Assembly: GCA_961205875.1 (NCBI GenBank)
Contig: OY540822.1
Location: forward strand, 16,370,501 to 16,434,500
Length of the DNA stretch: 64,000 nt
Source of the DNA: Sialis fuliginosa
Taxonomy: Eukaryota; Arthropoda; Insecta; Megaloptera; Sialidae
Reading direction: 5' to 3'
Under the pieces are notes generated by a model. The model did not search any database. It was not told where the DNA came from and saw only the letters and a program-made list of their open reading frames with translations. Below are positions 6,782 to 43,500 of this stretch, piece by piece (position 1 is the stretch's first letter; each line of letters begins with the position of its first letter). The position numbers were made by a program, and so were the translations under genes.

Positions 6782-7075
6782 ATGAATTTTGTAATAACAT
6801 CGGAAATGATCGATCGTGGAGAAACAAAAACTGTAAGTTAATTCATTTATTAATATTATTATGTATCAATGTTTTAGAATATTTCATTTTTTCAGATATC
6901 TGCTGCGATTACTGATCTTTTAGCAAAAAATGGAAAAATTTTGATTCAACCTCCTTATTTTAGTCCGGACGATATAGAAATAGTAAATGATAATACTACA
7001 AGAGTGAGGTACTTACAAATATTGGAAAAAATTGCTCTACAAAATAGAACATCTATTCAAGGTAATACGAAATAA
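6782..7075 (+). CDS. Small helical protein, cluster member 1 (two exons, 74 aa)
   Basis: Exon 1 is 6782-6832 (17 codons, ending GAA ACA AAA ACT before GTAAGT). Exon 2 is 6896-7075, after TTTTTTCAG. The intron is phase 0. Exon 1 encodes MNFVITSEMIDRGETKT and exon 2 opens ISAAITDLLAKNGKIL. The frame is 74 aa, with no signal peptide or membrane segment, and a predicted helix in its last third (YLQILEKIALQ). I do not recognise the family. It shares intron position, phase and the I-x3-I-x2-L-x3-N spacing with the three neighbours at 7390-7826, 8337-8887 and 9786-10201. A possible donor (CAAG then GTAATA) lies just before the stop, so a further exon cannot be excluded. Confidence 0.6.
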
Positions 7076-7389
7076 AATGTATCTCAGGGCAATTTTAAAT
7101 TTACCTTCCACAAATGTCATTTAAGTTGTAAACAAATAATAATACTATGTTATTTTATTTAAATAAATACAGTTCTTGTTAATTGTGTTTTATTATTCAT
7201 TAATATGAACACAGATATTTTAGTAAATTCTACGTGAAAGTATCTTATAATCTCTGAAAATAGGAAAAACCTGCAGATAACCTTTATAAAAAATAACATA
7301 CAATTTCTCAAATCATTTATTTAACCAAACTTCTTACAGGTAAGTATACATAAAGACATTTAAAAACACGTCAAATACAAACAAAAAAT

Positions 7390-7826
7390 CTATTTTTTAG
7401 GTTTCATCTTTCTGCCACTGTTTGCAATTGCAATATTAAAAAGTAAACTGATTTTTGCGTCTCGACGTAGTGACAAAAGTTCAGCTATCAATTTTCGATT
7501 CATAATCACTTTGTTCTGCATACCAGGGCTCAAAATTAGGATCGTACGTCTAATGGTGAAGTTTACTAATGCCAAATGTCGAATTGCCGTATCGATCTAA
7601 TTGTAAGAAATTCAATAAATACCAATATATGAATATAAAAACGATAATATATAAATATTAACTTATATTCATATCAAGTTATCATTAAATATAAAGGGTT
7701 GGTCACTTTGACTTCTGAATAACTCAAATGTTTGATATTTAATATGTTGAAATGACTTACCACAGAAGTATCTCCTTCAAGTATCATGTCCTCTGTTATT
7801 ACGTACTGGATTCTCTCAGGCATCAT
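7390..7826 (-). CDS. Small helical protein, cluster member 2 (two exons, 90 aa)
   Basis: Exon 1 is 7761-7826 (22 codons from a double ATG, ending GATACTTCTGTG before GTAAGT). Exon 2 is 7390-7596, after TTACAATTAG. The intron is phase 0. Exon 1 ends IQYVITEDMILEGDTSV, close to VITSEMIDRGETKT of member 1. Exon 2 opens IDTAIRHLALVNFTIR, again with Ile, Leu and Asn at positions 5, 8 and 12. The C-terminus is basic (GRKMKPKK). The protein is 90 aa with no known domain. It lies head to tail with member 3 and convergent with member 1, 314 bases apart. The similarity to member 1 is what supports both as real genes; function is unknown. Confidence 0.6.
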
Positions 7827-8336
7827 AGGTATATCTATTTGTTAATTAAATAATTAATACTAATACCTAAATGTCAATATTGAATATAAATCACTAGTAA
7901 ATTTGACAACGTTATATAACTAGAAAACTCGGAAATCTTCTACTGCGACATACGTAGGTATTTGATATTTGGTGCATACAATGTTAGAAGCAGATACCGA
8001 TATAAAATATCTAACTAAATATTCACAGTACTCAAAAAATTGTATTTTTATTTCAATACCTATTTGTTAAAATATAACGAAATAATAGTAGGTATAATTA
8101 CTTATTCTTTATACTTATATAAGGTACAATTAAGAGAATCAACATTTTAAATGTATTATAATACGTTAACTACCTATACATATATTATTTATTTAATTAT
8201 TAATTATTACAAAACAATTATAATATATAGAAAATAAAAAAAGTTGATAATGATTTTCACATTCCATAAAATATCGATTAAAAAATGTTTATTACATAAA
8301 AACTTAAAACGAATTAAACTTAATTTTAAATTTAAA

Positions 8337-8887
8337 TTAAAAACTATCAGTATCTTCACTATCTTCAGATTCGAGGTTAGAATTTTCTTCTATTGGATTG
8401 TTTTTGAAAAACATTTCCATTTGCTCGAATCGCTGTTTCTGTTTTAAATAGATTTCTTTTAATTTTGAAACATGGGATTGCATATCCGTTAAATTATTTT
8501 TAAATTCTTTCATCAGTTTCGGATCAGAATCCTGCAAAACTAGCACTTTGTTCCTGAAATTTAGTTTGTGTATAGCCTTTAAAGCCTGTAAATAAAAAAA
8601 TTAATCAATATTAAATTCTACAGATTTAGCTTAATCGATCAAAATGTATTTTTATTGGGACCTTCTCATGACCCCCTTCAAGGAATCAAATAATTTGGGA
8701 TTAATTAAAAATTAATTTAATCGCTGTTTTGGGCACCTTCCCCTACCTCCCTTGTGGGGTAATAAATCTATACACGACAGGGTTTTAGGATTTATTATAA
8801 GTTATAACATGAAACATTCAAGAAAATTCAACTTACCAAATGTTGTTCTTTTCCTTTAACAAATTCCTTGTTCAATTTGAAATCCAT
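8337..8887 (-). CDS. Small coiled-coil protein with acidic tail, cluster member 3 (two exons, 99 aa)
   Basis: Exon 1 is 8837-8887 (17 codons, MDFKLNKEFVKGKEQHL, donor GTAAGT). Exon 2 is 8337-8585, after a TTTATTTACAG acceptor. The intron is phase 0. Exon 2 opens ALKAIHKLNFRNKVLVL, keeping the Ile, Leu and Asn of the family at positions 5, 8 and 12. A likely coiled coil follows (roughly residues 40-82, including VSKLKEIYLKQKQRFEQMEM). The last residues are strongly acidic (ESEDSEDTDSF). Exon 1 is the same length as that of member 1. I infer common descent from the shared gene structure and spacing; overall sequence identity is low. Confidence 0.6.
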
Positions 8888-9785
8888 TTTGATTATTATT
8901 ATTAATAAAATTAGCACAACTAGATAACTGTGTGTATGTTTGTCACCATTTAAAATAATTTCAAAAATATTGAACTCTAAAATGTACGTACGTACACTTA
9001 AAAATATTTTATACAAATAACAAATTAAATGGGTGTTAGAAAATATTTCTAATATTTTATATAATTTTATACAAAATAAGTATTCTTATAAGTATTTTAT
9101 GTTATACAATACTTATAGTCCATAATATACGTCACGAAATATTCATGCTTTTTTTAGCCTTCCCTCCCACCCCCTTTATCAAAATCTCTCCAAAGGAATG
9201 ATTATTAGTTTATTAGTAACATAAAAAAATGAAGACAAAGTGACCACATAAAGTATTTGTAGATAGATAGATACTGTATATATTTAAGTAATATAAATTA
9301 TAATTAATAATAAAATAATTGGTACTTGGTAATGTATACATTTGTATTACATTTTCTCTAAAATAATAAATAGAAGTTAATATTTTTACTAATAACATAT
9401 TTAACACATTCTCAAGATTTGCATATGATATATGCGTGTAAACAAATATTATACAAATGTGGTAATTTATTATTATTATTAGATCATATATATGTATTGT
9501 CATTCCAAAGAAATTATTATTTTTTATGATTATTAGTAACATACAAACATGAAGACAACACATAAATATTTGCATGGTTATATTATTATTGATATTTGTA
9601 TTTTTGAAAATAATACAAACAATATCGCCCCTGCCCCCACCCCGACGTTAAAAAGTGATTGGTATCCGTGTAGACTTGTTTTTTTTATATAAGGTGCCAT
9701 ACTGACAATAAGTATACGATCTGATAAGATAATTTCAGTTAGAACAGTTTTCTTAAGTATAATACAGTATAATAGATATCTGAAA
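8888..9785. other. Divergent intergenic region between cluster members 3 and 4
   Basis: This 0.9-kb AT-rich stretch separates the two divergent genes. The long minus-strand open frame in it (9213-9575) is low-complexity Tyr/Ile/Asn sequence and not a credible gene. A TATATAAGG motif at about 9690 fits a promoter for member 4. Confidence 0.4.
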
Positions 9786-10201
9786 ATGATGACACTTTCG
9801 TTTTTCCGACACCTTGCTTTCTGTGGATTAACTGAAACGGTAAGTTAAGTAAAAACTGAATGTTCAATAATAATCAATGAATTGTTTATTGTTTACAGAT
9901 AGAAGCTGAAATACGTTCTCTACATTCTCGGAACGATATGATCATTTTGAAATACCGTTTAACCGATTCTCTCCGTGCTGAGATAATAAGAAATTACGAA
10001 CGTATTGAATGTTTGACAAATCTAAAACGTATAGCTGAAGAAAAGGCTTATCAATTAGAGAATAATGCTGTTTCAAGCAATGTTAGTGATAATTCTCAAG
10101 ATCTGAGTGGATTGAGTGATGTTAGTTCTACTTTCGAAGAAGGAAGCTTGTCAGAAATTGAGTTTTTTGATGAAGAATATGATGATGATTTTGATTATTA
10201 A
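9786..10201 (+). CDS. Small helical protein with acidic tail, cluster member 4 (two exons, 118 aa)
   Basis: Exon 1 is 9786-9839 (18 codons from a double ATG, ending GGATTAACTGAAACG before GTAAGT). Exon 2 is 9899-10201, after TTTACAG. The intron is phase 0. Exon 1 ends FFRHLAFCGLTET; exon 2 opens IEAEIRSLHSRNDMII, with the family's Ile, Leu and Asn. A helical stretch follows (IIRNYERIECLTNLKRIAEE), then a Ser/Asp-rich linker and a very acidic end (FFDEEYDDDFDY), like member 3. A TATATAAGG box sits about 95 bases upstream of the ATG and a TCAGTT initiator-like motif about 50 bases upstream. The function is unknown. Confidence 0.6.
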
Positions 10202-11318: not shown

Positions 11319-13341
11319 TCCCGGAGTGACGCAGGAACGACTCCGGAACGACCCCGGAGCGACGCCGGCACGACGCCGGAACGACCCCGGAGTGACGCCG
11401 GAACGACTCCGGAACGACCCCGTAGCGACGCCGAAACGACCCCGGAGCGACGCCGGAACGGCTCCGTTAGGTGAGGTTGGGTTAGGTTAGGTTAGGTCAG
11501 TGACTCCGGGGACTCCGGAAATGACCTTACTGACTCCGGAGACTCCGGAAAGACATCACTGACTCCGGGGACACCGAAAATGACCTCACTGACTCCGGGG
11601 ACTCCGGAAATGACCTCACTGACTCCGAGGACTCCGGACATGACTCCGGAACGACCCCGGAACGACCCCGGAGCGACGCCGAAACGACGCCGGAACGACT
11701 CCGGAACGACCCCGGAGCGACGCCGGAACGACCCCGGAGCGACGCCGGAACGACTCCGGATCGACCCCGAAACGACGCCGGAACGACCCCGGAGTGACGC
11801 CGGAGCGACGCCGGAACGACCCCGGAGCGACCCCGGAGCGACGCCGGAACGACCCCAGAGCGACTCCGGAACGACCCCGGAGCGACGCCGGAACGACCCC
11901 GGAGCGACGCCGGAACGACCCCGGAGCGACTCCGGAACAACGCCGGAACGACCCCGGAGCAACGCCGGATCGACCCCGGAGCGACGCCGGAACGACTCCG
12001 GATCGACCCTGGAGCGACGCCGGTACGACCCCGGAGCGACGCCGGAACGACCCCGGAGCGACGCCGGAACGACCCCGGAGCGACGCCGGTACGACCCCGG
12101 AGCGACGCCGGAACGACCCCGGAGCGACGCCGAAACGACCCCGGAGCGACGCCGGAACAACCCCGGAGCGACGCCGGAACGACCCCGGAGCGACGCCGGA
12201 ACGACCCCGGAGCGACGCCGGAACGACTCCGGATCGACCCCTAAGCTACCCCGGAACGACGCCGGTACGACCCCGGAGTGACGCCGGAACGACTCCGGAA
12301 TGATCCCGGAGCGACGCCGGAACGACTCCGGAGCGACGCCGGAACGACTCCGGAGCGACTCCGGAGCGACTCCGGAGCGACTCCGGAGCGACGCCGGAAC
12401 GACCCCGGAACGACGCCGGAACGACCCCGGAGCGACTCCGGAACGACCCCAGAGCGACGCCGGAACGACCCCGGAGCGACGCCGGAACGACTCCGGATCG
12501 ACCCCAGAGCGACGCCGGAACGACGCCGGAACGACGCCGGAGTGACGCCGGAACGACTCCGGAACGACCCCGGAGCGACTCCGGAACGACTCCGGAACGA
12601 CCCCAAAGCGACGCCGGAACGACCCCGGAGCGACGCCGGAACGACCCCGGAGCGACCCCGGAGCGACCCCGGAGCGACGCCGGAACGACCCCGGAGCGAC
12701 TCCGGAACGACCCCGGAGCGACGCCGGAATGACCCCGGAGCGACGCCGGAACGACCCCGGAGCGACGCCGGAACGACCCCGGAACGACGCCGGAACGACC
12801 CCGGAGCGACGCCGGAACGACCCAGGAGCGACTTCGGAACGACGCCGGAACGACCCCGGAGCGACGCCGGAACGACACCGGAGCGACGCCGGAACGACTC
12901 CGGATCGACCTCGGAGCTACCCCGGAACGACGCCGGTACGACCCCGGAGTGACGCCGGAACGACCCCAGAGCGACGCCGGAACGACCCCGGAGCGACGCC
13001 GGAACGACTCCGGATCGACCCCGGAGCTACCCCGGAACGACGCCGGTACGACCCCGGAGTGACGCCGGAACGACTCCGGAACGACCCCGGGGCGACGCCG
13101 GAACGATTCCGGAGCGACGCCGGAACGACTCCGGAACGACTCCGGAGCGACGCCAAAACGACCCTGGAGCGACGCCGGAGCGGCGCCGGAACGACTCCGA
13201 ACCGACCCCGGAGCGACGCCAAAACGACCCCGGAGCGACGCAGGAACGACCCCGGAGCGACGCAGGAACGACCCCGGAGCGACGCCGGAACGACCCCGGA
13301 TCGACGCCGGAACGACCCCGGAGCGACTCCGGAACGACTCC
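11319..13341. repeat. GC-rich minisatellite built on an 11-bp unit, ~2.0 kb
   Basis: The array is made of GAC-G/C/T-CCGGA-A/G-C units of 11 bases, most often paired as GACGCCGGAAC + GACCCCGGAGC (22 bases), roughly 180 units in all. Every unit carries one or more CpGs and a CCGG. Because 11 is not a multiple of 3, all three frames on each strand read the same 11-residue cycle, TPERRRNDPGA on plus and VAPGSFRRRSG on minus; this is why long open frames cover it. A longer GACTCCGGGGACTCCGGAAATGACC variant and a GGTTAGGTTAGG patch lie at 11466-11660. The sister segment at 27.9 kb joins TATTTCC directly to TTGTTGAAA, so the array occupies a single point. Confidence 0.92.
11466..11500 (+). repeat. 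Short TTAGG-type (insect telomere-like) repeat inside the minisatellite
   Basis: The sequence GTTAGGTGAGGTTGGGTTAG, continuing as GTTAGGTTAGGTC, holds several TTAGG pentamers, the usual insect telomere unit. It interrupts the 11-bp array. It is too short to be a telomere and may be an interstitial fragment or chance. Confidence 0.5.
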
Positions 13342-13793: not shown

Positions 13794-15080
13794 TAAAGTG
13801 ACCAGACGTCCCGGATTGTGCGGGACAGTCCCGGATTTGAGTGGCCTGTCCCGCATCACAAAGTGTCCCGGAAAACGTCCCGGATTAGACATTTGAAGAC
13901 CTTTTTTTTTGTTGAGTGTTTATGCAGAAAATAATAAAAAAAAAAGGTCATTAGATTTTATTCAAACTGTAAAATGTAAAATTTTTTAATCTAAAATACA
14001 AAAACTGTATTATTTAAATTTTTTTTAAAAACATTTTTATCAAATTTTTTTATTTTTATTAAATATTTTTCCCTATGTATATGTGGGGGGAGGTGTCCCG
14101 CATCAGGGTTTTAGAATTCTGTTCACTTTAATATAGTATATACTATATACTATATGTATATACGTGTAATACTTTACACTATAGTTTACACTATTATATA
14201 CTATTAGATTATTACTATTATATGGTCTTCGGGCATTAGATAGTCTTAAAGATAATGGTGTAAGCGATATTTAAAAAAAAACTGGAGTCTCTTCGATCGC
14301 GCCGAGCTGACATATTAACTATTCAACTTATTTGTTAAATTTTCAATTTAAATTTCTTAATAATAGCCGAAGGCGCACTCGAAGGTCTTCGGGCAATAGA
14401 TAGTCTTAAAGATAATGGTGTAAGCTATATTTAAAAAAAACTGGAGTCTCCTCGATCGCGCCGAGCTGACATATTAACTATTCAACTTATTTGTTAAATT
14501 TTCAATTTAAATTTCTTAATAATAGCCGAAGGCGCACTCGAAGGTCTTCGGGCATTAGATAGTCTTAAAGATAATGATGTAAGCTATATTTAAAAAAAAA
14601 ACTGGAGTCTCTTCGATCGCGCCGAGCTGACATATTAACTATTCAACTTATTTGTTAAATTTTCAATTTAAATTTCTTAATAATAGCCGAAGGCGCACTC
14701 GAAGGTCTTCGGGCATTAGATAGTCTTAAAGATAATGATGTAAGCTATATTTCAAAAAAAAACTGGAGTCTCTTCGATCGCGCCAAGCTGACATATTAAC
14801 TATTCAACTTATTTGTTAAATTTTCAATTTAAATTTCTTAATAATAGCCGAAGGCGCACTCGAAGGTCTTCGGGCATTAGATAGTCTTAAAGATAATGGT
14901 GTAAGCTATATTTAAAAAAAAAAATGTAAATTTTTTTAATCTAAAATACAAAAACTATATTATTTAAATTTTTTTTAAAAACATTTTTATAAAATTTTTT
15001 TATTTTTATTAAATATTTTTCTCTATGTATATGTGGGGGGAGGTGTCCCGCATCAGGGTTTTAGAATTCTGGTCACTTTA
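13794..15080. mobile_element. hAT-like non-autonomous transposon with 8-bp target duplication
   Basis: The ends are TAAAGTGACCAGA and its inverted copy (TTCTGGTCACTTTA at 15067-15080). The 8-base TCTAACGC at 13786-13793 is repeated at 15081-15088, and the sister segment has this site once (CTATCTAACGCAGAAT, near 28388). An 8-base duplication with such ends is typical of the hAT superfamily. There is no transposase frame. The right-terminal ~150 bases occur twice, at 13979-14130 and 14927-15080, bracketing an internal tandem array, so the element grew by an internal duplication. Confidence 0.88.
14224..14920 (+). repeat. Tandem ~160-bp repeat, about 4.4 copies, inside the hAT-like element
   Basis: Copies start with GGTCTTCGGGCA at 14224, 14383, 14543, 14704 and 14865, a period of 159-161 bases. 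Each contains ATAGTCTTAAAGATAATG, TCGATCGCGCC-A/G-AGCTGAC and GCCGAAGGCGCACTCGAAGG. Copies are nearly identical, so the array is young. A diverged single copy lies at 2116-2250. Confidence 0.9.
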
Positions 15081-15616: not shown

Positions 15617-15812
15617 TTATTAATATTTATTATGCGAATTTACGTTAAAATTTTAAAATACTTAATATAAAATTATATAAAATTAATATTTATTATGCGA
15701 ATTTACGTTAAAATTTTAAAATACTTAATATAAAATTATATAAAATTAATATTTATTATGCGAATTTACGTTAAAATTTTAAAATACTTAATATAAAATT
15801 AAAATAAAACAA
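15617..15812. repeat. 63-bp tandem repeat, three copies, 3' of the TTF2-like gene
   Basis: The unit runs from TTAATATTTATTATGCGAA through TTACGTTAAAATTTTAAA to AATATAAAATTATATAAAA. It starts at about 15617, 15683 and 15746. It ends just beyond the stop codon of the TTF2-like gene (15817), so it probably lies in its 3' untranslated or immediate downstream sequence. Confidence 0.9.
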
Positions 15813-29765: not shown

Positions 29766-32700
29766 CTATATGCTACATCCAGTGGTTACTTCCTCGCCTG
29801 TCTTGTGATTCCAACAGCACTGGTGATACAACGTAGGTCCACTTTCTGCAGATGCAGACGCAGGCGCAGGCGCAGGAGCTGGTAACAAAGACAGAGATTC
29901 TGTACTTAGACTCTGTTCTAGTTCCAATAGTTGTCCCATGAAGTTCAAGTTAGGTGAGATGATAGGTCGCACGTTCTTTACCATCTTGTACGCTTCCACC
30001 ATCGACAGATGTTTGTATTTCATTATGTAAGCTATCGCTATCGTTGCGCTTCTTGAAACACCTGCTTGACAGTGGATCAGGACACTGTCGCCTCTCTTAC
30101 GGGCCTCCTCTGAAAAGATAAATAACATTATATAACAAGTGTACATCATTGGGTGCTCATTACTGGACAAAAAACATCATCATTTTAAAAATAAACTATT
30201 TTTGCAAACTTTACTAATTAAATTGATTTAATAAAGAGGCCAAGACTGGTGCTAATACCTTACACACGTTGCATAAATCGATAAATTCATAGATAATACA
30301 CAAATATTAGCTTATTTTTTGTTACTGCGAGATATTTTAAATATTAAATATAATTTTGATAAAAATTCGCAAAATGTAAAGGGTTGGTCACATTGACTTC
30401 TGAATAACTGAAATATTCGACTCACGTTGCATAAATCGATAAATTCATAGATAGTCCGGTTCTGTAAAAATGATTTCAACACAACCAAGATTAAAGCTAA
30501 CATTGCGCAGTAGTTCTATGTGTGAGTGTGTGTGCGAGTGTGTGTGCGTGTGAGCGAGTGTGTGAACGATGACTCATAGCTAAACACAGCTGCCCATGCC
30601 GGTTGGGTTATCAGCTAAGAGAAGGTACAAGGGGGGTCCCAAGTTGAGTGCTCGGGGAGGGGCTATAGTACAGACCGTTTGTCGCGATATGAGTCATAGC
30701 TTACATGTGGATAATCGTATGTGTATACAATATATATATATATATACACATATACATACGTGGACCGTATTCAGATCGCTTTTCACTGGGTTATGCATTC
30801 CGTCCGTATAATTGTTGCTTTATTTGTTTCACTATTAGTTGGGCGCATAGATTACAAACAAGCTCGTTCTATACATTCCATAATAGCTCTATGTTTCATT
30901 TTATTGTCATTTGGTGACTGGCGCCCATCTAACAGTCAAGTACTGATCAAATAATCAAGTCAACTAGTTTTTAAGAAATTATGCATGTAAATAAATTTAA
31001 AAAGTACAATTGAAATAAAAAAACAAAAATAAATAACAAAAGTAGTGAATAATGAATTCAAATCCATGCTCGTGTGAATCATAAAAGATACATTTCATTT
31101 GTTTACTTTGTTTTGTTCAATGTTTATTAATAATGTTTCAAAGTTTGCAATACAGCCATTTACGTCATTGACTAACTTAAAAAATAAAATCGACTATAAA
31201 GTGCAGGGTGGGATTTATAAATTGAATGCCCCCCCTAAAACTTTGAAAGGACCAAGATATATTTTATCCTTTCAAATATATATTTAGATAAAATTGGGCG
31301 CATATGTAAGGTTAATTCGGGAAACACTGTTCTATATAAAGTATGAGTCATTCTCGCGGTAATGCTATTAACTTATTTTTGAAATGAGGGCAATGTTACT
31401 TTCGGCACATAATTGCGTACTGGGCTAATTGTTTAACATTTATTTTAAAATCATGTCTACCAGTTTTAAAAATAAATAATTATTATTTTTACCGATAAAG
31501 TCGAAGGCCTCCTCGAAGTACTGTTTAAGGTTTTGTTGGCCCGAATCCGAAGCGGGTATCTGTTTGTAAGTGAGCGGGCCCGGAAGAGCCCCTGATACCG
31601 GAGGTCGAGGCAGATGTGCCGTCACGTTGAGAACACAGTTGGCTCCGAGTTCTCGCAATCTTTGTGGATCTGCAGCATCCCGTCCGTTGCCTAGATACAG
31701 AAACGGGAGCACTCTAGAAGCGGGATGTGTGTCTATATCGCTGTTACTTCCGTCTGAAATGTAATTGACAACTAAGTACGACTTACATTCGGGTTCATAG
31801 AGTTACCTTCATTCATTTTACCTGTTGATTCAACAGCTGTGTAAAGTGGTTTTTCTAATAGAGCGTCTTCGCACATTTCTGTATACCTCCTATGGAATTC
31901 TTTGTGGCCTCCTGAAATAAATTAAATAACGATAACAACATACATATTATAATAATCAGATTACCTACATACGTATGTCTATATATCAAAGATATGTAAT
32001 TCACCAAGATTTTAATTCAATTTATTTCATGCAAAATACAATGTGAAAATGAGTTCAAGGAAGTTCAAAATATATATTTCCATTAAAATCTCATATTAAT
32101 GTGAATACAAAAAACAGCGACGATCAAGGGAAGAGGGTAGAGGGTAGATTGGTATGTTTTTAACACATCCCCTTAGTCATAGTACGAGTAGAAATGATGA
32201 TTCATCGACTAGTTAGCTGTTAGTATACGAGTAAGTTGTCGTTTACATTTTACATCGACTTGGCCATTGTTTAAACCTGCAGTCCAGTGGTACCGAGAGC
32301 GCAAGGCCGACGCGCTGCCTTGAGATCGCTATTTCCTTGTTTCTTTATTTTATAAACCAGGGGTAACCAAAATTACTCAAACATACGTGGATTCAAATTT
32401 AACTTATCTCTACAATAATATCAAAATTAAGAAATGTTTGTTTTAGATGTAATATTGGCAACCCTGTGTTATACAGGTAAAACTTGTATGTATACAAATA
32501 TATCATCAATTTGTGTGCATTATGTTGCAATTAAACTGACTCATTGCAATTATAATGCATATAGATAAATATTGTATTTAATTCATATTCTTAATAGGGG
32601 TAAAAGTTAAATGGTTTTAAATTAAATAAATATCATATGAATCAGATTGTATTTAAATTTATTTAGATAAATAGAGGAAGTTTTAATTATTAATATTATT

Positions 32701-38700: not shown

Positions 38701-40551
38701 TATACAATCATTTATCAGGAGTATATTTAAAATTTAAATAACTATCATTGCAATAATCATTTTTAATGTTTACGTGAAAAATACTTGATTTTTTTTGAAA
38801 AGAGTAAATGGACCTTGAATTTGTATTTGTCAACAAACATCTAAAAATAGAATAGTCATGTTTTTAAAACATATTTGTTCAAAAGTATTAAATGTGTATG
38901 ATTATTTCACTTAAATGTTCTGAAAATTACTGAAATCGATATTTTTATAGGATCATTAAACAAACATAGAACATATATTCAAAAAATTCGAAAATTCAAT
39001 TGAATTTAAACCGAAAAAAAGTTGAGATTACGAACTTCAAAATGATCTATTTGAATTTTGTCTATTATTAAGTATTCAGTTTAAACAAAAAAAAAACGTT
39101 TTTTTTTTTAAATAATGACAATATTATATTTTAAATACAATACCTAAGATAAGATTGTTCTAAAAAAAGCAAAAATACAAAACAATTAAATACTATATGA
39201 TAATGTAAGAATTTTAATAAAATTTATTAGGCTTATCAAAATAAAGCTACATTATAAAATAATTAATTCTTCTGTTATTTCAAGATTCATGATCATAAAC
39301 TGATCTAATTAATAATTGTTATCCTTTTCAATGTATTCATGTCTTATGTTTTCCCCTTTCTCTTGTATAGCAAATTGTCCTATTTAATAAATAAAGGTTT
39401 TTCCAATCATTATTTATGTTAAGAATATTGAATTGTTTTCTGGGCAGTAGGTTAAGTTACTAATTTAAAAGTGTTAAACGATTTTAAAATCAACTAAATG
39501 TAGAAATTTGAGAACAATATACACTTATGTATTACAAATAGAGTAAAAGAAATAATTAATATAATCACATGTATAGTTAATATAATCTTTACTTAATCTA
39601 TATATTACATTAAATAAAAAAAATCTCTAAGTATTTATTCAGTTAAAATAAAACAAAGAAATGAACTTTTAATAAATGATTTCAATTACCATTGTTTAAA
39701 AATCATACAAATAACAAATTTCAATTATTATACAAACGAACAAAATAAATGTATTAATCGTTCTATATTTTTGAATTTTTTAATGAATCTTATATATTTT
39801 TACAGTCTGCCCTATTACATTTTTACGTATACCCTGGTATATATTTTCATGTTTTAGTTTTATAAAAAACTACTAAACAGGGATCGATGAATCAGCTGTA
39901 ATCTTAGCTAGACTACCCTTGGCCTTATCTTCATTAATTCATTAATTAATACGTAAGAATTAGTAATACATAATATACAACAAACGTGTTAATATATGTA
40001 TGTTAAGATAGCTTAAGTCAAAATGAGATAAAAGACTTACCCAGAAGTACAGTAGGTTCCCTGTCTTCATCGACCAATGTGGCCAATACAATAAACAGAG
40101 GATGTGAAGACGGTAACTTGTCCAAGTCAGCTGTTGCATCATCATAAACAAGAACTTCCTTAGATACACTCTTTCTCAAGAGCTCCTTACCATCTCTGGA
40201 AGTGACAAGATCTGCCAGAGTGGCTTTACCTTGTTGTAAACGTCTTCTATTAAGTCTATCCGAACAGTTGACGTTGATAGAACCACGAATATGACTAGCA
40301 TTATAAGCAATGAATGGTCTGCAGTCTAGAAGTAATAATGCACGTGAACTCATCTCGGTTAGTTTACCGACAAGAGCGTCCGGGTCAAGAGTTCTGACCC
40401 GCTGTAGTACGCCTTGGGTATGGGTCGAGGTGTCCAGCTTGAGGCGCTTAGACTTTACGTACTCCGTAGGGCCTGGTTCGCTTAGACTGCGACTTAGCGA
40501 TAGCTTCAGACCATTCCGCGGCCGACTACCGATAAATACTAACGTGGACAT
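29766..40551 (-). CDS. DUSP10: Dual-specificity MAP-kinase phosphatase, DUSP10/MKP-5-like (4 exons, 401 aa)
   Basis: Exons 5' to 3': 40041-40551, 31822-31911, 31493-31753, 29766-30109. All introns are phase 1. MKP-5 enzymes dephosphorylate JNK and p38. Residues 70-170 form the rhodanese/CH2 domain ([19 protein letters not shown]), including the kinase-docking arginines RRR (102-104). A basic KSKRLKLD (33-40) may be a nuclear signal. The catalytic domain (~213-335) opens [10 protein letters not shown] and has the general acid Asp270 (IPASDS) and the active site HCQAGVSRS with Cys301 and Arg307. [16 protein letters not shown] follows, characteristic of DUSP10. An Ala/Pro run ([12 protein letters not shown]) sits in the C-tail. 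I chose the ATG at 40549-40551, since the frame upstream has only a GTG. The first intron is 8.1 kb and contains an alternative first-exon candidate (34567-34627). Confidence 0.93.
30110..31492. other. Third intron of the DUSP10-like gene
   Basis: 1.4 kb with no exon signal. It holds a GT-rich run near 30515-30560, a (TA)n near 30730, and two copies of CACGTTGCATAAATCGATAA at about 30267 and 30424. GGGTTGGTCACATTGACTTC near 30380 is close to GGGTTGGTCACTTTGACTTC at 7697, a shared repeat fragment. Confidence 0.5.
31912..34566. other. First intron of the DUSP10-like gene, 3' part
   Basis: No exon or RNA gene recognised. AT-rich, with a somewhat less AT-rich patch at 32130-32340. The short open frames in this stretch are not credible genes. 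Confidence 0.4.
34567..34627 (-). CDS. Candidate alternative first exon of the DUSP10-like gene
   Basis: On the minus strand an ATG at 34625-34627 opens a 61-base exon, [20 protein letters not shown] plus one base, that ends CAG before GTTTGT. The phase (1) fits the next coding exon at 31822-31911. Splicing would give a protein lacking the rhodanese and docking domain but keeping the whole phosphatase domain. The surrounding 34550-34900 is higher in complexity than the rest of the intron, as a promoter would be. Other MKPs are known to have alternative starts; here it is inference from frame and splice site only. Confidence 0.35.
34628..35744. other. First intron of the DUSP10-like gene, middle part
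   Basis: 34628-34900 could be the promoter of the alternative first exon. Around 35030-35066 a CAGTGACGTAGATAG motif followed by a G run looks like a hAT-like element end, and near 35594 there is a similar CAGTGGCGAGGCGTG motif. No gene. Confidence 0.35.
35745..36492. mobile_element. Fold-back (palindromic) element, 748 bp, in the DUSP10-like first intron
   Basis: TCTACGTCTTATTTTCTTGT at the left is matched inverted at the right end. The match runs nearly unbroken to a centre at about 36118, so each arm is about 370 bases with few differences. Open frames of 62 and 71 residues mirror each other on the two strands and are by-products of the symmetry. No target-site duplication is evident. Confidence 0.85.
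36493..40040. other. First intron of the DUSP10-like gene, 5' part
   Basis: No exon seen in 3.5 kb. It is strongly AT-rich, with one small inverted-repeat element (37181-37310) and a related end sequence at 38341-38370. Confidence 0.45.
37181..37310. mobile_element. Small MITE with inverted ends
   Basis: GACTTGGACCAAGAAATATT at the left is matched inverted by AAGGATTTCTTGACTCAAGT at the right (37290-37309), both followed inward by TTGTTTTAT. A further end-like copy, GACTTGGGCCAAGAAATCCT, lies at 38343, so the family has more than one member in this intron. Confidence 0.55.
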
Positions 40552-43500
40552 CGCACAGTCTGTTACAAATAACGTCACGGCTATATCCGTACAGCACCCG
40601 ACATCGCACTACGATATTTCCAGGCTGGGACTCGGAATCGCCACCTATCGATCAAAATCATATAAATAACAACAAACAATTTCCATATTTTTACTCGGTT
40701 TATCTATCATACTCAATATAATAAACCATTCAACATTTTCAATAATATGCAATTGATTTTTTCTTTTAATATTGTATCTATGGTTATACTTATTCCATAA
40801 AACACACAATAGTTAAATATATTTTATCATATCTGACATTTTCTAACAATAAGTAGGTACATATTAATATGTATATTTTGAGAACGAATATATTTCTTAC
40901 AATTAGTAACAAGATAACTTAATCCGGGTGCTATAAAAATATCCAAACGTTAGCTATATGTATGTTATCAAAAACCTGATATAAAGTAGATAATGACATA
41001 TTTACTTTTATTTTACTCAGGTAGGTGTTTGTCGTACTCGTACTTAATACTTATGTATGTAGATACCAATATAATATCTATCTACTTATTACATATTACG
41101 TACCTACATGTAACATACAATATATATACATATATTATGTAACTTTAATTATCAATCATCATCAAAAAATAAACTATATTATGATCAAATGTATAATTTA
41201 CCAATATTTTCTTATAAATTTTAGCTACTTTTAAATTCCATGAAAAATCATGTAATGTAAACAAAAATGTGAAATGTATAAAAAGTCTATATACAGCAAT
41301 ATTTTTAGATTATGTTACATACACTGTTCTGTTGTAATTTTTGTTTATATATTAATGTTAGTATGTATATTCTTTATAAACTAGATCAGAGATTATTTAC
41401 GTCTATAATGTGTCAAAATATTTAATTATAAAAATAGGTAATTCTTTAAAATTCTGTAATTATGATAAAATAACGCATTCTCATTTCGAATCAACTTCGT
41501 TTTTCAAAAAACATTCTCATAAATATACTTCAATTCAATACATAAGTTCGAATTTTAAAACTGAATCGATATTTTTTACGAAATTCAAGTGGAAATGATA
41601 TTTTACACAATATTTTATAAACTGGCTAATTTATTTAAAAATGTGTCAATTTCAAGTGGATACAAATAAAATTTTGATAAGACAAACAGTTAGCTGATAT
41701 AAATAATATGTAAACAGCATGTGTGTATACAGAAAGGGGGTTATTCATAATTTTGACAAAAATTGAGTGTCGAAAATTTTCCCAGTTTTATTGTATTAAA
41801 TAATCGTCATTCCTATATATATAAATATAGTGAAATATTAACTAATGTTATAAACAATATATATTCCTGATTAATAATTTGGTTTTGTGACGTCATACTT
41901 TAGAGCTATGACGACATCGACATTATTTTTAATATCAAACTATAATTTTACCACAAAATGAATAAGCATTAATTATATTTATGAATGGATGTAAAGTGAA
42001 TAAAACGTATTAACGTAACCCTTCGATAAATAATACATATATTCAAAAACTGTACATGACGTCACGTCTCTCTAGTATGACGTCACGAAATTAAATAGAA
42101 ATATGATTATTTTTATCAAATTTCATTATTTTAAATAACTACCCCCTCCCACCTCAAAAAAGCAATTGATAATTATTGTATAGGTACCTATTTATTTTCT
42201 ACATACACATAAAATATATGTATATCATTTTAAAGAAGTAGCTAGTTTGATATCGTTACTAGTTACTATGATAAAAAACAGATAGTACATATTATAAAAT
42301 ATATTTAATATTTGTTTATTACATAAACACACATTAGCTTAACCTTTTCAATAACAATATAATTACTTATTTGTATAACACAACTAAACAGTGAACAATT
42401 TTAATTTTTAAATGGGAGATACCTATTTGTAATAACTACAACTAGGTACTGTATATATGGAAATACGTTCAGTCTATTGTTTTATACAAATAATAATACG
42501 TATATCGACTCGTTATATAAAGAGTGGTTGGTATTTTTGCAAAGTTCCATTGAAACTGAGATTAGTAAAGTATTTTTGAATGATTCATTTAGCAAGGCCG
42601 TTCAAGTAGGTATTCACTTCAAGTTTAGAATCTCGTATGTTAATTTTGTCTATATGTAAATAAGAATAGCATTAACCCCTTAACAAACTTGTTTTTAAAA
42701 CTAAATACCTATTTATTTAGTCTTGTATCATTATAGAAGGTCCTGTATTTTCCCTTAATCAATGTGTTTCTAAAAATATCTGGTATATAAATACAAACTA
42801 CAATTTATACGTTATTGCACACTTATTATAGATGACTCATAATAGAAATGTCAATGTAGCATTATTGTATAATATACTGTAGATGTATGTATTTATCAAA
42901 TACATATGTACATATTGTAAAATCAATAAAGGAAATTGTATAATTACATAGGTAGGTATATCTTAAACTTCAAGTTTTTCTTGTGTACGTACATATTATT
43001 GTTATATGTAAAATATTATAACTATAACTCTGTCTAATAACAAATAAACATTAAATATGTGTACATGGATTTGATAGATTAAATTGATCTCATATTATAT
43101 AAACTCACCATGCGTTTTAAATAAAATATCGTTGAGGCATGACTATGACTACACATACTTATTAAATGTATTCACAATTGTATTTTAAATAAATAAATAA
43201 ACATTAACTTTTACAACACATCACTTACAAACACACAACTTACGAACATATCACACATTAGTTAATTTTAAACACTAAAAAACTTATATGTATCACTGAA
43301 AACCGTAATTCACATCATTAAGTATACAAACATGTACGTATGTATGTACATTTTACTTGTGTCTAATAGAATGAGTCATAACGACATTGTGGTCGCGGGG
43401 AAAGGGGCTTTAGAGGTCGCCCGCATAGCCTCATACCATGAATGTCATCTGTCAAATGTCAATACACTTTTTTCACATTTTATTATTATTATTTCTTAAC

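Follow-up and report, generated by a model that had tools for sequence, protein, structure and literature searches.

Four short open reading frames between positions 6782 and 10201 of a 64-kb stretch of the Sialis fuliginosa genome (contig C14, positions 16370501-16434500; the window) raise the question of whether they are genes, whether they belong together, and what kind of protein they might encode. A first-pass annotation made from the letters alone had described them as tiny two-exon genes that share an intron and an N-terminal motif, and as old or fast-evolving paralogs held together in one place. New gene models, derived from the letters of the window, gave the order A forward, B and C reverse, and D forward, with the following features (window coordinates).

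6782..6832, + strand: gene A exon 1, 17 codons, MNFVITSEMIDRGETKT
6833..6895, + strand: gene A intron, phase 0, GTAAGT...TTTCAG, 63 nt
6896..7075, + strand: gene A exon 2, 59 aa and stop; predicted helical hairpin
7761..7826, - strand: gene B exon 1, 22 codons, the last 17 aligning with A
7597..7760, - strand: gene B intron, phase 0, GTAAGT...AG, 164 nt
7390..7596, - strand: gene B exon 2, 68 aa and stop; basic C-terminus
8837..8887, - strand: gene C exon 1, 17 codons
8586..8836, - strand: gene C intron, phase 0, GTAAGT...TTACAG, 251 nt
8337..8585, - strand: gene C exon 2, 82 aa and stop; acidic tail
9786..9839, + strand: gene D exon 1, 18 codons, the last 17 aligning with A; SF-LA-CG subtype
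9840..9898, + strand: gene D intron, phase 0, GTAAGT...TTACAG, 59 nt
9899..10201, + strand: gene D exon 2, 100 aa and stop; long acidic tail

The rebuilt proteins measure 76 aa (A), 90 aa (B), 99 aa (C), and 118 aa (D); the lengths given earlier for B, C, and D stand, while the 74 aa given for A becomes 76. Phase-0 GTAAGT introns and first exons of 17-22 codons, as originally described, are found in all four models. Anchored at the donor, the last 17 codons of exon 1 align across the four models, with five extra N-terminal codons in B and one in D, and the second exons begin in register; the exon-2 stretches quoted in the annotation are correct against the rebuilt models.

A scan of 134 kb on both strands for this layout (an ATG, 15-25 open codons, GTAAGT, an acceptor 50-320 nt further on, and at least 55 open codons) returned the donors of A to D only, and 2.0 Mb of simulated third-order Markov DNA, scanned on one strand, gave no match. 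Two further genes described below, E and F, lie within the scanned 134 kb but outside the limits of the scan, E through its longer intron and F through its short frame. Likeness of sequence was assessed by hidden Markov models of the A-E rows, realigned with each member left out in turn: A scored 47.0, B 23.6, D 26.8, and E 49.7 bits, values that were reached by no shuffle among 10,000, and C scored 6.6 bits (p 0.006, 10,000 shuffles), making it statistically the weakest member. Free pairwise alignment with shuffling strongly supported the pairs A-B and A-D, and the best pairing of C reached p 0.047; the membership of C is therefore a matter of layout combined with a weak sequence signal. For the 17-residue exon-1 segment, leave-one-out scores of the seven members identified in this work, C included, ranged from 15.0 to 52.5, against 3.5-11.0, depending on the matrix, for the best of 218 background segments from 276 kb, none of which reached the member tested; the exon-1 match noticed at the outset is in agreement with these values. 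They supersede an earlier scoring with the members inside the matrix (33.8-66.3 versus 4.7), which is circular. A tree of five members was weakly resolved (bootstrap 72 and 65%) and was left unused.

The whole genome (392 Mb in 20 contigs) was searched for further members. A search with gene A identified exon 2 of gene E at C14:8,542,421 (37% identity, E 0.004), preceded by an acceptor. The corresponding first exon was sought upstream by prediction and consists of MKFVITGTMIANGETHL followed by GTAAGT, 1.5 kb upstream of exon 2 and separated from it by an intron of 1,476 nt; it scored 25.5, against 3.5 for the runner-up within 8 kb, and the spliced model at C14:8.54 Mb encodes 92 aa. In its exact form the VIT exon-1 pattern matches three times in 392 Mb, in A, B, and E only. 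When up to two mismatches were allowed there were 28 matches versus 15 with a backwards control; among the 17 of the 28 that were inspected, nine of the others having been left out, the layout was present, beyond the known A and B, in E only. An exon-1 matrix scan of 154 kb then added gene F, which lies on the strand opposite to E and about 2 kb beyond it.

C14:8544563-8544613 (positions 2564-2614 of extracted locus L008), - strand: gene F exon 1, D-like, with donor; followed by a 63-nt intron and a good acceptor

The first 23 residues of F share 11 identities with those of D (11/23, p 5e-6). Its expected frame reaches a stop after 12 exon-2 codons, so F is either decayed (a possible pseudogene) or otherwise spliced, and exon 2 of D finds no match in the other open frame of F (p 0.37). 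An exon-2 HMM applied around the cluster and E (3,218 frames, together with two later loci) found no additional copies and missed F. A pattern taken from D and F led to an intact gene, G, on contig C2.

C2:16438164-16438214: gene G exon 1, followed by an intron of 1,352 nt
C2:16439567-16439803: gene G exon 2; spliced protein of 95 aa

Against the A-E profile the spliced protein of G scored 25.7 bits, the best of 10,000 shuffles reaching 16.1. The D/F pattern itself had 22 matches versus 83 for its control; of 20 inspected, D, F, and G showed the layout and 17 did not, two matches without a locus being left out. In 7/7 copies, A to G, the exon-1 segment of 17 residues runs up to a phase-0 GTAAG donor, and the family comprises at least seven genes in three places on two contigs (the cluster at C14:16.4 Mb, C14:8.54 Mb, and C2:16.44 Mb), six of them intact and F broken. 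Seven is a lower bound because the genome search scores the best candidates only and because a query with the family consensus found E, A, and D but missed B and C. Judged from the DNA, A to D form part of one real, strongly diverged gene family, other members of which lie elsewhere in the genome. The divergent paralogous family with a common intron and N-terminal motif that was proposed initially agrees with the layout scan, the leave-one-out profiles, and the further members; the notion that its members are held together does not, with three more genes at C14:8.54 Mb and C2:16.44 Mb. As for the introns, that of E contains a nested inverted repeat (positions 995-1295 of extracted locus L005, at C14:8.542 Mb) which looks like a small transposon, a MITE-like insertion, and an inverted repeat is visible by eye in the 1,352-nt intron of G.

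Exon 1 occurs in two subtypes, VIT-like (A, B, E, and loosely C) and SF-LA-CG-like (D, F, G). Both places on C14 carry each of them, A/B/C with D and E with F, and no VIT-type exon 1 was found within 19 kb around G. Position 13 of the segment is Gly in all members except C. Among the six intact members the only invariant columns are Leu8 and Leu43 (exon-2 numbering). Of the three residues singled out by the first-pass annotation in the second exons of A to D, all correctly read there, Leu8 is invariant, but Ile5 is replaced by Leu in E and Asn12 by Ile in G.

The nucleotide sequences also bear on coding potential. Over a 33-codon core of A to E, similarity at second codon positions exceeds that at third positions in 10/10 pairs, and similarity at first positions does so in 8/10; over 61 codons the figures are 10/10 and 7/10, both sets being uncorrected for composition. 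Codon-usage scores of all five genes exceed the noncoding mean, although C and D alone rank within the top 5% when set against 240 random open frames: 2% of the random frames score as high as C and 5% as high as D, compared with 15% for A, 13% for B, and 28% for E.

Structure predictions covered exon 2 of A and exon 2 of C. AlphaFold2, run with five rows on exon 2 of A, returned a helical hairpin (helices 2-16 and 24-58, mean pLDDT 90.5), and exon 2 of C folded alone gave a two-helix model interrupted at residue 21 (pLDDT 80). The single-chain predictions suggested in the first-pass annotation, made for these two exons only, are thus in line with its view of the proteins as helical, and the family members probably make small helical proteins. 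The tails differ in net charge (D -14, C -8, B +5), and gene E carries +11 overall, mostly in the core. No secretion signal was evident by eye in the exon-1 sequences, which are mostly polar.

No relative with a name emerged from the databases. None of A to E or G matched Pfam above any curated cut-off, and to that extent the proposal of an undescribed family holds; NCBIfam gave no match to the family proteins, and sequence searches of the PDB gave nothing significant (best E 0.71, 0.53, and 0.1). A Foldseek search of the PDB with the A hairpin returned nothing better than E 1.9, the fold of C gave 0 matches there, and against viral models the best value was E 0.64, with no convincing viral fold. 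A viral or prokaryotic origin gained no support, one protein each having been searched: exon 2 of A found no relative in viral contigs, nor did gene E in prokaryote contigs. Topic searches, which could not use the sequences as a query, found no paper describing such a family in the portions of the literature they returned, and this negative is weak evidence of novelty for that reason.

A near-match concerned gene C, which scored 23.4 bits against the Rad60-SLD/SUMO-like profile (PF11976; cut-off 23.8, E 5e-5). Three scrambled or roughly reversed versions of C hit other families at E 0.03-0.04 or nothing, and the match is stronger than these few controls, since they gave nothing better than E 0.03. 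A SUMO-like domain in C is nevertheless not supported: the score is just below the cut-off, the match is lost without the last 21 residues, and the model is helical rather than a ubiquitin fold.

Other features of the window and genome were recorded alongside. Rfam and tRNA scans of the window found nothing. A GC-rich minisatellite occupies positions 11320-13338; its basic unit of 11 bp recurs about 155 times between 11630 and 13338, and short GTTAG repeats lie at 11466-11497. Several of its reading frames are open, on both strands, and could give spurious long ORFs. Two nearly perfect tandem arrays follow, at 14224-14922 (161-bp unit, 4.4 copies, 97%) and 15619-15809 (63-bp unit, 3 copies, 98%). 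On the - strand, a dual-specificity phosphatase catalytic exon (DSPc, E 5e-27) at 29769-30176 and a rhodanese exon (E 1.6e-7) at 40021-40608 perhaps belong to one MAP-kinase-phosphatase-like gene. The pea aphid is reported to carry an ldcA gene (PMC9116674); a search of the whole Sialis genome for Peptidase_S66 (LdcA) gave no match.

Among insect gene families, the bicycle genes of aphids are one of the closest parallels. Bicycle proteins are secreted and built from many microexons, whereas the family here has two exons and no signal peptide evident by eye. According to PMC9168663, bicycle genes are a highly divergent family recognised, like the present one, through gene structure, for which sequence search yields few homologues, and their products are implicated as plant gall effectors. 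The cassette effectors of the pea aphid, such as KQY, are likewise small proteins with a conserved first coding segment and a divergent remainder, but their conserved segment is a secretory signal peptide and the remainder is encoded by miniature exons (PMC7495047), while the genes here have two exons only, the first of them coding for a mostly polar segment.

We consider it rather probable (about 0.6) that these genes, at least seven in number, are an apparently undescribed, dispersed, and fast-diverging family whose products are small helical adaptors acting inside the cell. That the family exists rests on the gene models, the common intron, sequence homology, dispersal, and the two exon-1 subtypes. 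The genes would be old or fast-diverging and would encode small proteins of 76-118 aa, in which exon 1 would supply the 17-residue segment with its Gly and exon 2 a helix-loop-helix hairpin followed by a tail differing in length and charge between copies. The hairpin may pack with itself or with that of a paralogue as a small helical bundle inside the cell, and the variable basic or acidic tails would set the binding partner of each copy. In this account we infer that the proteins are intracellular and oligomerise, what their tails do, and that the genes evolve fast between species. There is close to an even chance that the family is known but uncurated, represented in insects by orthologues annotated as uncharacterized proteins and perhaps an old subunit too short and too divergent for Pfam; Pfam, NCBIfam, and the PDB can miss short divergent families, and the data searched included no insect proteome. 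This is compatible with the adaptor reading, because what it puts at issue is novelty and not mechanism. It is very improbable, on the other hand, that the four frames are not genes at all, being products of chance or decay, and that their likeness is an artefact of picking similar short frames: they are short, the DNA is AT-rich, the codon scores are modest, and copy F is broken, but the simulated DNA (2 Mb) gave 0 chance layouts and further members were predicted and then found.

Kinship with a known hairpin family deserves as little credence. Both STAR Qua1, the homodimerisation hairpin (PF16544; GLD-1 3k6t), and CDK2AP1/DOC-1 (PF09806; 2kw6) are helical hairpins that appeared among the weak Foldseek matches (20-21% identity to GLD-1 Qua1, 25% to CDK2AP1), and the loop and RVR motif of gene A recall Qua1; the E values of 4.7-6.2 are, however, ordinary for a helical hairpin. 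Pfam listed no Qua1 match for A to E or G at E<=10 (the HMMER filters drop weak ones) and no CDK2AP match, nor was a KH match listed downstream, for which proteins of 76-118 aa are too short. The family profiles failed on the genome's own STAR Qua1 (0.3 and 2.1 bits, p 0.37 and 0.12) and on its own CDK2AP, a clear gene on contig C8 (-0.8 bits, p 0.30, or no score), and at the sensitivity of these searches we regard either kinship as unsupported. The Qua1 gene of the genome, moreover, apparently has its intron at profile position 35/36, inside the domain and not before helix 1, though the second half of that domain matches only at E 0.9. Possible, but doubtful, is that the VIT-type chains (A, B, E, and perhaps C) and the SF-LA-CG-type chains (D, F, G) are obligate partners in one hetero-oligomeric helical complex. 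One of each subtype occurs at both C14 places and the tail charges are opposite in sign; against this, the expected frame of F is interrupted, which may leave the E place without an intact partner chain, the 19 kb around G contain no VIT-type exon 1, and tails commonly differ in charge. A more far-reaching version, which we think unlikely, is a lineage-specific two-component system in which both kinds of chain arose from one duplicated gene and form a dedicated heteromeric helical complex, the paralogues diverging so fast, like genes of conflict or arms races, that little beyond the intron position and the 17-residue segment shows their kinship.

Here gene structure (exon-1 length, intron phase, and donor) has cleanly recovered, in one genome and with its predictions borne out, a family that sequence search nearly missed. 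If expressed and conserved, these genes would constitute a new family of small proteins, and if that family evolves fast between species it points to strong selection acting on some process in the lineage.
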